Positions 22,732 through 29,412 of a stretch of DNA of 34,542 bases are shown piece by piece. This DNA is from a virus. Location: IMG/VR virus record IMGVR_UViG_3300036761_000820, positions 1 through 34,542 of that record; one strand, given 5' to 3'. Every line of letters begins with the position of its first letter. Position 1 is the first letter of the stretch. Position numbers and translations under genes: made by a program. The notes under the pieces were generated by a model, which was not told the DNA's origin, did not search any database, and worked only from the letters and a program-made list of their open reading frames with translations.

Positions 22732-22779
22732 AAAGATGCGATGATACGACAAAATGAGACAACAATTTGACGAAATAAA

Positions 22780-22846
22780 AGGGCTTGCCCTGGACTTTTG
22801 GGCCTCTCGGCCCTGTGTCATCGCACAGGGCAAGTCCTGTTTTTAT
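22780..22846 (+). ncRNA. Structured RNA leader with competing folds (attenuator or antisense RNA candidate)
   Basis: Several stems share segments. A 12-bp outer stem pairs 22781-22792 with 22826-22837 (one G-U). An alternative stem pairs GGACTT 22792-22797 with AAGTCC 22832-22837. Inside are GGGCC-TCTC-GGCCC (22800-22813) and CCTGTG/CACAGG (22812-22817 with 22824-22829). A third option, ACAGG/CCTGT (22825-22829 with 22836-22840), is followed by five T like a terminator. The three-stem plan recalls phage c4-type antisense RNAs, but I cannot confirm a family. The next gene starts 10 bases later. Confidence 0.65.
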
Positions 22847-22856
22847 AGGAGGATAA

Positions 22857-23081
22857 ATGGAAAAACAAATTAAATTTATAATGCGAGGAATTTCAATTTC
22901 TATTAATCAAGACAATGAAATTGTATTAAGTCAACCAAGTGGTATTCAGATTACCGAATTGTCAGAAAGTATCATATTTTTAAGCCGCGATCAAATACCG
23001 ACAATAATTAAATGGCTAAGTGAGATAATAAACGTTACCCCAAACGTTTATAAAGGTAATGTCACAGAGTTGTCACAGTGA
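22857..23081 (+). CDS. Small protein upstream of the replication initiator (unknown)
   Basis: A 74-residue protein of unrecognised family after AGGAGG, just beyond the structured leader. Its 3' end contains one 12-bp iteron (23030-23041), a partial iteron and a TGTCACAG direct repeat. The C-terminus 'INVTPNVYKGNVTELSQ' is thus partly shaped by DNA-level elements. A role in replication control is possible by position. Confidence 0.6.
   Translation: MEKQIKFIMRGISISINQDNEIVLSQPSGIQITELSESIIFLSRDQIPTIIKWLSEIINVTPNVYKGNVTELSQ
23030..23049 (+). repeat. Iteron cluster 1
   Basis: One full iteron AAACGTTACCCC (23030-23041) is followed by AAACGTTT (23042-23049), a perfect 8-bp palindrome. It is about 50 bases upstream of the initiator start and read as NVTPNV, a different frame from clusters 2 and 3. 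Confidence 0.85.
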
Positions 23082-23082
23082 C
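23060..23082 (+). promoter_or_regulatory. Operator-like site before the replication initiator
   Basis: TGTCACAG occurs at 23060-23067 and 23071-23078, 11 bases apart (one helical turn). The second copy is part of a perfect palindrome GTCACAGTGAC (23072-23082). It lies 17 bases before the initiator start codon and overlaps its likely leader, so it may control initiator expression or bind it at the origin. Confidence 0.5.
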
Positions 23083-23098
23083 GTAAGGATAAATAATA

Positions 23099-24019
23099 AT
23101 GGCTATCTATCGAAAAATTTATCCCAGAATTTGGCAATCATTAAATGGTTTAAATGCTATCGAAAAACTTATTGCTCTTTATATTCTATCGGGACCGCAA
23201 ACAAATAGGATCGGGCTTTATCAATTTTCCATTGGCCGATCTATGGAGGATTTAGAAACGTTACCCCAAACGTTACCCCAAACGTTTATTAAATGTTTCA
23301 GGAACGTTATAAAACACCTTGATTGGCTGTATGATGAAAAATTCCGAGTGGTTTATATACCGACCTGGTGGAAATGGAATCCACCGGATAATAAAAATGT
23401 TTTAATAGGCAATTTAAAAGACATAGACGAATTGCCGAACACACCATTATTATCTATATTCTTGAGTAATAAAAAATATTTAGAAAGTAACCTTAAGGAA
23501 ACGTTACCCCAAACGTTACCCCAAACGTTACCCCAAACCGTCGCCGAAACAGAAACAGAAACAGAAACAGAAACAGAAACAGAAGAGAATACTGTTTCAT
23601 GTGAGCTTAAAGTAAAAAAAATAAAAACTAAAATTCAGGAAGCAAAGAAAAAATGCGAAAAAGAATTTCAAGAAAATTTAGAATTGTTTAAAATAAAATA
23701 CCCTGGTATTGATTATCCGGAAGAACTAAGAAAAATGTTGCTTTGGATTGAAGAAAACATAAGCAAAAGTATAAAAAAAACATCATGGAATCTATTCCAA
23801 TCCAATTGGCTATCGAGAGTAAAGCCAGTCTACATGCAGCCCAACAAAAATAATAATCGTTATTCAGTCGACCCCTCAGAGAGGAACCAGCCTAAAACAG
23901 AAAAACCCTTCCATCTACAAGTCATCGAATCAGGCAATACCAGGGATGACCTTGACCCAAACGCCAAGATTATGTTTGATAAAAGCATGAATTTATATCA
24001 AGATGAGGTAAAATCATGA
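23099..24019 (+). CDS. Replication initiator (lambda O / DnaD-like N-terminus) containing iterons
   Basis: A 306-residue protein. Residues about 1-110 look like the winged-helix N-terminus of phage replication initiators ('IYPRIWQSLNGLNAIEKLIALYILSGPQ' region, 'GLYQFSIGRSMEDL', 'VVYIPTWWKWNPPDNKNV'). Residues 53-62 and 134-146 are LPQT repeats encoded by iterons, and an acidic Glu-Thr run follows. The C-terminal part (about 175-305) is helical, with 'RKMLLWIEENISKSIKKTSWNLFQSNWLSRV', and may recruit the helicase. It is followed by nuclease genes. The position of iterons in the gene recalls lambda O. It starts after TAAGGA. Confidence 0.7.
   Translation: MAIYRKIYPRIWQSLNGLNAIEKLIALYILSGPQTNRIGLYQFSIGRSMEDLETLPQTLPQTFIKCFRNVIKHLDWLYDEKFRVVYIPTWWKWNPPDNKNVLIGNLKDIDELPNTPLLSIFLSNKKYLESNLKETLPQTLPQTLPQTVAETETETETETETEENTVSCELKVKKIKTKIQEAKKKCEKEFQENLELFKIKYPGIDYPEELRKMLLWIEENISKSIKKTSWNLFQSNWLSRVKPVYMQPNKNNNRYSVDPSERNQPKTEKPFHLQVIESGNTRDDLDPNAKIMFDKSMNLYQDEVKS
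23256..23309 (+). repeat. Iteron cluster 2
   Basis: Two full 12-bp AAACGTTACCCC units (23256-23267 and 23268-23279), then the palindromic AAACGTTT (23280-23287) and a partial AACGTTA (23303-23309). They are read as TLPQTLPQTF in the initiator. Confidence 0.9.
23499..23540 (+). repeat. Iteron cluster 3
   Basis: Three full AAACGTTACCCC units at 23499-23510, 23511-23522 and 23523-23534, then a decayed AAACCG. The three clusters are about 230-240 bases apart. The Glu-Thr repeat and an A-rich stretch follow directly. Confidence 0.9.
23546..23581 (+). repeat. Simple repeat (GAAACA)6
   Basis: Six exact GAAACA units encode six Glu-Thr pairs in the initiator. The strand is purine-rich and links the iterons to the A-rich segment at about 23594-23700. 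As the unit is six bases, slippage would change length without breaking the frame. Confidence 0.95.
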
Positions 24020-28075: not shown

Positions 28076-28213
28076 ATGCCAGTAACAAAAGTTAAAGGCG
28101 GATTTAAAATATTTTCAAAAACTGGAAAAGCCCTGTCAAAAAAGCCCCTGACTAAAGCCAAAGCCAAGCGTCAACTTCGAGCGGTTAAAATGAGCCAAGG
28201 TGAAAGAAAGTAA
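28076..28213 (+). CDS. Small basic phage protein (45 residues)
   Basis: The frame begins with ATG after AGGAGG and ends in TAA shared with the next ATG (TAATG). The N-terminus 'MPVTKVKGGFKIFSKTGKAL' with following Lys/Ala/Arg-rich helix matches a common type of small basic phage protein that starts with a 'GGY/F...GK' motif. Function unknown; perhaps nucleic-acid binding. Confidence 0.75.
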   Translation: MPVTKVKGGFKIFSKTGKALSKKPLTKAKAKRQLRAVKMSQGERK

Positions 28214-29412
28214 TGAAAATCGAATATCTGCCAATCAATCAAGTAAAACTAAATCCCGATAATCCCCGACAGATTACCAAAGCAAAAATGGCTCTATTGG
28301 TAAAATCTTTGCAGGACTGCCCTTCGCTATTCGATGCCCGGCCATTGCTTATTTCAACGCGCACCGGTGAAAATATCATCATCGGCGGTAATATGCGCTA
28401 CCGGGCAGCTAAACAATTGAAATACGAGAAAGCCCCTTGTATCATACTCCAAGAACTTACCGAGGCCCAGGAAAAGGAAATCGCCATTAAAGACAATGGC
28501 TCATGGGGTGAATGGGATTATGATATTCTAGCGAATGAATGGTCAGACTTGCCATTGAATGATTGGGGTATCGACCTGCCAAAGGATTTTATTACGGAAC
28601 CAGAATCGGAGGCAGATGCCGAACCACAGATTGACCGAGCAGCGGAATTACAACAAAAATGGAATGTCCAAATAGGGCAATTGTGGCGGCTGGGAAAACA
28701 CCGCTTGGTTTGCGGTGATTCAACAGAGAAGACTGCGGTCGACAAACTGTTTAACGGGCAGGTCCCTTTCATTATGGTCACTGACCCGCCCTATGGCGTT
28801 CAGTATGATCCTGAATGGAGAAAAAAACTTGACCACTTCCACAAACACTCTCTTGGCAAGGTACTCAACGACGACCGGTTTGACTGGAGCGCTGCCTGGA
28901 AACTTTTTGAAGGAGATGTGCTCTATGTATGGCATGCAGGCAAGTATGTTTCTAAAGTGGCCGAAAGCATTGAATTGTGTGATTATGAAATAAGAAGTCA
29001 GATTATTTGGAAAAAGCAGCACTTCGTTTTCAGCCGGGGCGATTACCACTGGCACCATGAGCCTTGCTGGTACGCCGTCCGAAAAGGCAAGAAATCAAAA
29101 TGGAACGGCGACCGGACCCAAAGCACAATCTGGGAAATAGCCAACAGCAACCCTTTTGGCAATGGCCGGCAGCCTGAAGAAAAGACAAGCCACAGCACCG
29201 AAAAACCAGTTGAATGCATGGCCAGGCCAATTCGAAACCATGGCAATGAAAACGACATCGTTTACGATCCGTTCCTCGGCAGCGGTACAACCGTCATCGC
29301 CTGCGAACAACTGGGCCGCACCTGCTATGCCGTCGAAATCTCTCCCGAATATGTCGCGGTGTCTATCCAACGATGGGTTGATATCACCGGGAAGGAGCCT
29401 AAACTATTATGA
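28213..29412 (+). CDS. ParB-like nuclease domain fused to DNA methyltransferase
   Basis: A 399-residue fusion. Residues about 1-105 are a ParB/Srx-like domain ('INQVKLNPDNPR', 'GENIIIGGNMRYRAAKQL' at 52-69). From about 150 there is an N6-adenine/N4-cytosine methyltransferase: catalytic motif DPPY (191-194), then a target recognition region with many aromatic residues, then SAM motif 'DPFLGSGTTVIACEQLGR' (352-369). The order (IV before I) is the beta class. Such fusions are common in Mu-like and other phages just upstream of terminase. Probably protects phage DNA from restriction or marks packaged DNA. No restriction partner is visible. Confidence 0.88.
   Translation: MKIEYLPINQVKLNPDNPRQITKAKMALLVKSLQDCPSLFDARPLLISTRTGENIIIGGNMRYRAAKQLKYEKAPCIILQELTEAQEKEIAIKDNGSWGEWDYDILANEWSDLPLNDWGIDLPKDFITEPESEADAEPQIDRAAELQQKWNVQIGQLWRLGKHRLVCGDSTEKTAVDKLFNGQVPFIMVTDPPYGVQYDPEWRKKLDHFHKHSLGKVLNDDRFDWSAAWKLFEGDVLYVWHAGKYVSKVAESIELCDYEIRSQIIWKKQHFVFSRGDYHWHHEPCWYAVRKGKKSKWNGDRTQSTIWEIANSNPFGNGRQPEEKTSHSTEKPVECMARPIRNHGNENDIVYDPFLGSGTTVIACEQLGRTCYAVEISPEYVAVSIQRWVDITGKEPKLL

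Follow-up and report, generated by a model that had tools for sequence, protein, structure and literature searches.

A probable replication origin marked by AACGTT iterons within a DnaD-like phage initiator gene

The location of a replication origin within the gene of its own initiator is already well known from lambda O, Tuc2009 rep, and pSK41 rep. In lambda O, the iterons lie in the linker-coding part of the gene and are followed by A-rich and then by AT-rich DNA (PMC6022878). In the RepA_N protein of pSK41, whose structure is DnaD-like, the winged helix-turn-helix (HTH) N-terminal domain binds four Rep boxes located centrally in rep, and the protein can dispense with the linker that the origin encodes (PMC5703833). 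Tuc2009 Rep (orf16 of a Lactococcus phage) is encoded by a DnaD-like loader gene annotated as "contains origin of replication", and its linker region comprises repeats spaced by 11 bp followed by a purine-rich repeat tract. In B. subtilis, DnaD recognises a single-strand element of paired 5'-TnnT-3' motifs in oriC, beside the DnaA boxes (PMC10201434).

The DNA considered here, referred to as the window, is the whole stretch of 34,542 nucleotides of the viral record IMGVR_UViG_3300036761_000820, in which an initial annotation had pointed to repeats in and near a putative initiator gene.

The initiator gene and its iterons

The features of the gene, of the small open reading frame (ORF) preceding it, and of the three repeat clusters C0, C1, and C2 are the following.

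22857..23081, + strand: small ORF of 74 aa with a Shine-Dalgarno sequence, upstream of the initiator gene, with C0 in its 3' part
23030..23049, + strand: cluster C0, AACGTT at 23031 and 23043, read as N-V, 67 and 55 bp before the initiator start
23099..24019, + strand: DnaD-like replication initiator of 306 aa, PHROG 1701
23156..23356, + strand: predicted winged-HTH DNA-binding domain, codons 20-86 (AlphaFold2 model)
23256..23308, + strand: cluster C1, AACGTT at 23257, 23269, 23281, and 23303, degenerate AATGTT at 23292
23276..23317, + strand: predicted recognition helix, codons 60-73, overlapping C1 (AlphaFold2)
23499..23540, + strand: cluster C2, AACGTT at 23500, 23512, and 23524, degenerate AACCGT at 23536, encoding the linker
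23594..23836, + strand: helical C-terminal domain of the initiator, codons 166-246 (AlphaFold2)

The initiator matches PHROG 1701 (DnaD-like helicase loader) over residues 1-245 with an E-value of 4.4e-17; this match and the presence of homologues in replication modules bear out its earlier identification as an initiator. The AlphaFold2 model, with pLDDT above 90 over most of the winged HTH, places helices at residues 20-31, 45-51, and 60-73 and strands at 40-42, 77-79, and 84-86; C1 corresponds to codons 53-70, that is, to the turn and most of the predicted recognition helix, while the linker around residues 140-165, encoded by C2, is disordered in the model. The C-terminal domain is recognised in homologues as DnaB_2 (DnaD-type) or as a weak DnaT match. 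Winged HTH domains make up most of the structural neighbours of the N-domain, with Z up to 5.9, and include Rep and DnaD N-domains at Z 4.2-4.5, values too low for a claim of kinship; among them are 4pql and 5kbj (Z 4.4-4.5, 11% identity), which we take to be the pSK41/pSK1 Rep N-domain chains. Solved structures yielded no credible match when searched by sequence and weak ones when Foldseek was run against the PDB; Pfam searches returned neither Phage_rep_O (PF04492) nor RepA_N (PF06970) at E 0.1, nor Rep_Org_C (PF06926). Adjoining the replication genes, a short protein encoded at 24849-25346 matches a DNA polymerase beta thumb.

The 12-mer AAACGTTACCCC occurs in six exact copies, all on the + strand, starting at 23030, 23256, 23268, 23499, 23511, and 23523, and allowing up to two mismatches raises the count to ten, where shuffles would give 2.5. 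What is conserved is the palindromic core AACGTT, present 16 times in the record, with 9 of the 16 within 23031-23529; in 200 first-order Markov genomes with the dinucleotide make-up of the window, the maximum in any 500 bp was 4. The steps are 12, 12, 11, and 11 bp in C1, counting the degenerate AATGTT, and 12 and 12 bp between the AACGTT units of C2. The AACGTT at 23303 is read as N-V, so that two frames are in use within the initiator gene alone. When codons were shuffled at fixed protein, the seven AACGTT of this gene were reached in none of 2000 trials (mean 1.1). The spacers of the window copies are also identical, which suggests a recent homogenisation here.

Most of what the initial annotation had read in these repeats stands: the six exact 12-mers, which span 23030-23534; their two reading frames, NVTPNV in the small ORF and TLPQ in the initiator; the palindromic core, which is indeed the unit that the closest relatives conserve; and the lambda-like layout with iterons inside the initiator gene, confirmed by the repeat positions. 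The copies were counted correctly, but the extent of the array was understated, because C1 also comprises AATGTT at 23292 and AACGTT at 23303, and the placement inside the initiator gene is refined by the position of C1 in the recognition-helix codons. A minimum of the cumulative GC skew near 23 kb had been suggested as a check; the skew is approximately zero or slightly negative at 22.5-24.5 kb, but the cumulative curve does not reach its global minimum in this region, and no origin signal results.

Two clusters with a shared core in homologous initiators

About 60 homologous initiators, gathered by profile searches, were compared; a single-protein search of viral contigs found no relatives, whereas an alignment query did find homologues. 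Those from named phages go under the annotations replication protein O, primosomal, or initiation protein, and their genes are mostly followed by one for a helicase loader, DnaC, P, or replicative helicase; one homologue belongs to the E. coli K-12 phage PhiR5_2. In the closest homologues, one from a Candidatus Nitrospira defluvii locus and another from a Pirellulales contig among them, 4-9 AACGTT with 11-12 bp spacing lie in the same places. AAACGTTACCCCAAACGTT was found in one further viral contig only, L007, where it lies within a homologous initiator of 38% identity; about 270 bp of L007 contain nine AACGTT, read in all three frames, and the rest of the 6.6 kb available has none. In all nine genes of this clade AACGTT exceeds the codon-shuffled genes of constant protein (0/2000 in six, 24/2000 in the worst case), and in 8 of the 9 it is read in two or all three frames. 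These relatives keep the core only and not the spacer, with steps of both 11 and 12 bp.

When 6-mers recurring every 11-12 bp were sought de novo in the homologous initiators, other cores came to light: AAGCCTT/AAGGCTT in a large proteobacterial clade, AACGGT in a clade whose hosts are presumably Pseudomonas-type, AACCCT/AAGGGT in Parasutterella and Klebsiella relatives, and TACCCA, ACCGTA, AAGGGG, and others in further homologues; ATACSGTAT and TTCGAA are also in use among the more distant ones. In most genes the same core is found both in the recognition-helix codons and before the linker tract. The two sites thus recur among homologous initiators, with either the window core or one particular to the clade, and homologues lacking repeats, which the initial annotation had named as a refutation, are not what the comparison shows. 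Within a gene, C1 and C2 have 10.4 6-mers in common, against 3.6 for control windows. The match is gene-specific: leaving aside the AAGCCTT clade, the 6-mers shared by true pairs add up to 230 over 26 genes, and 5000 re-pairings gave at most 159. In the AAGCCTT clade, Glu is encoded by GAA in 56 of 56 iteron codons against 97 of 231 elsewhere (p 2e-18) and Ala by GCC in 69 of 76 against 154 of 382 (p 4e-17), synonymous sites within the iterons being nearly frozen; in the model of a member of this clade (L150), helix 58-70 is the iteron-encoded PEAFREAFREAFA. In TTCGAA homologues the helix reads FEGASKGLR and the linker FEAPSKPLR, with cores shared and spacers not; since C1 and C2 of the relatives share cores and not spacers, duplication of one cluster at the site of the other fails to account for the pattern. 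In the TTCGAA clade (L326, L331, L334, L338, L342, L359, L360, and L384), this helix and the linker FEAPSKPLRS each hold up to three TTCGAA, at 11 bp and in three frames.

Some homologues, namely L174, L172, and most Firmicutes members, are devoid of C1, which is therefore not obligatory. With seven copies in C2 against zero in C1, L174 suggests, from the comparison of sequences, that the two clusters can substitute for each other; as its helix sequence persists without AACGTT codons, a protein constraint must also act there.

The upstream cluster C0 has a different history. The small ORF has no Pfam match and no relative in viral contigs, and C0, sought upstream of the initiator in relatives, was absent; it was consequently dropped as part of the core origin and may be a recent duplicate or an operator. 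Of the earlier proposal that all clusters form the origin, the part concerning the intragenic C1 and C2, which are kept in relatives, is supported, and the part concerning the upstream copy is not. Iteron initiators often repress their own gene, and the position of C0, 55-67 bp before the initiator start, would suit repeats that serve as operators for transcriptional autorepression of the initiator, or of another regulator, instead of an origin. As an account of the whole array this is improbable, because the clusters conserved in relatives are the intragenic ones and not C0, and because intragenic arrays adjoining a repeat tract resemble known origins (PMC5703833). Between the upstream gene and the small ORF, an inverted repeat with 19-nt arms, 84% complementary, lies at 22774-22844 (GGGCTTGCCCTG...CAGGGCAAGTCC); it is possibly a terminator or a leader hairpin of the replication operon.

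All viral contigs were also scanned at the DNA level for three AACGTT at 11-12 bp steps, which gave at least 119 loci. In all eight loci holding a homologue of the window initiator, the array lies inside the homologue; of the mid-sized ORFs over the remaining arrays, 25 of 47 match phrog_10469, a DnaD-like helicase loader, and the best-represented families are mostly replication-initiation, replisome-organizer, or primosomal proteins. Arrays with the same steps occur in other initiator families (Phage_rep_org_N and others; for example in L035, L043, L101, L224, and L264), directly before acidic tracts such as PDTETETDTETE and often in all three frames, and the AACGTT core seems to be reused across initiator families. 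TTCGAA, a palindrome of the same composition, was picked as a control, and its scan gave 63 loci in which 17 of 41 mid-sized ORFs are PHROG 1701 initiators; among the 16 distinct homologues listed, it is found in the recognition-helix region in 12 and in the linker in 12. Being itself an iteron core of the PHROG 1701 family, TTCGAA was rejected as a neutral background, and its scan is an independent replication of the two-cluster pattern that gives no clean background rate.

The possibility that TLPQ is a linker repeat of the protein, generated by slippage, with the DNA repeats as its by-product, has in its favour that the whole 12-mer is identical in all window copies, spacer included, as after a recent expansion. 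By-products of this type do exist: some AACGTT arrays occur in GNVTGNVTGNVT (GNVT) repeat proteins, in a single frame and at constant 12-bp steps, and are an example of a protein-driven array. For the window this origin of the repeats is very unlikely, because relatives keep only the core, at 11 and 12 bp steps and in all three frames, synonymous sites are constrained in the AAGCCTT clade, one core serves protein contexts as unrelated as the recognition helix and the linker, and one window copy lies in another gene and frame. The initial preference for selection on DNA over a protein repeat is thus supported both by codon shuffling and by the repeats of the homologues.

The triplet tract and the AT-rich DNA

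Downstream of C2, two further features are present.

23546..23586, + strand: (GAAACA)n tract encoding TETETE, with A at each third base over 13 triplets
23600..23699, + strand: candidate unwinding region, 80% AT, the most AT-rich 100 bp of the 34.5-kb record

On the opposite strand the window tract reads T-n-n-T. Nearly all homologues have such a tract directly after C2, in most of them with 7-27 triplets with A at each third base, and in most of them this A falls on codon position 2 (QEQE, KEKE), a pattern that the protein alone could explain. The periodic base falls on the synonymous position 3 in the window (TETE) and also in L184, whose ETGAGEGAG tract is DNA of this kind in another frame, in L019, whose PVPVPAPV tract has 13 codons ending in T and is the reverse complement, and in L219 (NANANA). 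Selection on T-n-n-T across frames and strands is suggested by these sequences, although slippage acting on a hexamer repeat would produce this periodicity as well. Most members follow a strand rule, with iterons followed by bottom-strand T or a tract followed by top-strand T, the exceptions being the L019 group and L215. In the Firmicutes-type L214 and L219 the tract comes before the iterons and has its periodic T on the top strand, which gives the impression of an inverted module.

In the QE tracts, Gln is encoded by CAG in 135 of 150 codons against 136 of 228 elsewhere, while Glu is freely GAA or GAG, which results in one CTG per six bases on the opposite strand; these CTG are perhaps primase start or priming sites. 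The AT-rich region after the tract is not constant in 31 relatives, where its median is only at the 73rd percentile; it is strong in the window but was dropped as a conserved feature of the family.

The proposed origin in comparison with known systems

The region 23256-23700 is probably a replication origin inside the initiator gene, whose product would bind the iterons through its own winged HTH, with the tract and the AT-rich DNA downstream; we infer the binding, the start of replication here, and the role of the tract from the arrangement described above. The N-terminal winged HTH would bind the AACGTT iterons spaced by 11-12 bp in C1 and C2, and perhaps also C0, possibly repressing its own operon; the assembled complex would strain the neighbouring triplet-periodic tract and the AT-rich DNA, and the C-terminal DnaD/DnaT-like domain would capture one strand while recruiting the helicase loader. 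A role is proposed for the tract because TnnT pairs constitute the single-strand element of B. subtilis DnaD beside the DnaA boxes. That the repeats are instead a centromere-like or other nucleoprotein array (partition, methyltransferase target) bound by another phage protein, for which a ParB-N/methyltransferase fusion encoded at 28213-29412 could be invoked, is highly improbable, since the core varies between clades together with the initiator around it, and initiators of several families contain arrays. In this fusion, a ParB N-terminal domain is joined to an N6/N4 DNA methyltransferase.

In the open-access literature searched, no description was found of a second iteron cluster in recognition-helix codons, of clade-by-clade covariation between both clusters, or of a tract kept across frames and strands. 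A broader reading, possible but somewhat doubtful, is that of a self-referential replicon family, in which the sites encode their own recognition helix, the core is repeated in the linker, and the tract is a phage counterpart of the DnaA-trio/DnaD element. If so, a base change in C1 can alter the binding site and its reader at once, and the overlap may either drive the turnover of origin specificity or hold it fixed, with at least eight cores in one protein family. In general, the arrangement described here would make abundant and mostly unannotated phage initiators a set with readable origins, as core, spacing, and tract can be found from sequence alone; paired cores and recognition helices of one protein family would provide data for a DNA-recognition code, and the sharing of nucleotides between a binding site and its presumed reader would make initiator-origin co-evolution directly testable.

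By analogy, the window phage would work like lambda O, Tuc2009, and pSK41 with no demonstrable membership in Phage_rep_O, RepA_N, or Rep_Org_C. As in lambda O, the C2 iterons of the window are in the linker-coding part of the gene, and A-rich and then AT-rich DNA follows; the lambda iterons, in contrast, number four, each a hyphenated inverted repeat of 18 bp, at intervals of about 20-24 bp, whereas those of the window are AACGTT at 11-12 bp, and hhalign found no homology between lambda O and the window family (probability 0.1). To our knowledge, no lambda iterons are present in recognition-helix codons. The pSK41 sites are only central, with none reported in the helix codons, while the window also has C1. 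As in Tuc2009, the linker of the window comprises repeats, here spaced by 12 bp, and then a repeat tract; Tuc2009 Rep differs in belonging to another PHROG and in its Rep_Org_C C-terminal domain, and profile comparison gave no match with the window family. Like B. subtilis oriC, the window has double-strand sites adjoining a triplet-periodic tract with TnnT on one strand; unlike oriC, a single phage initiator would putatively do both jobs, with the tract inside its gene.
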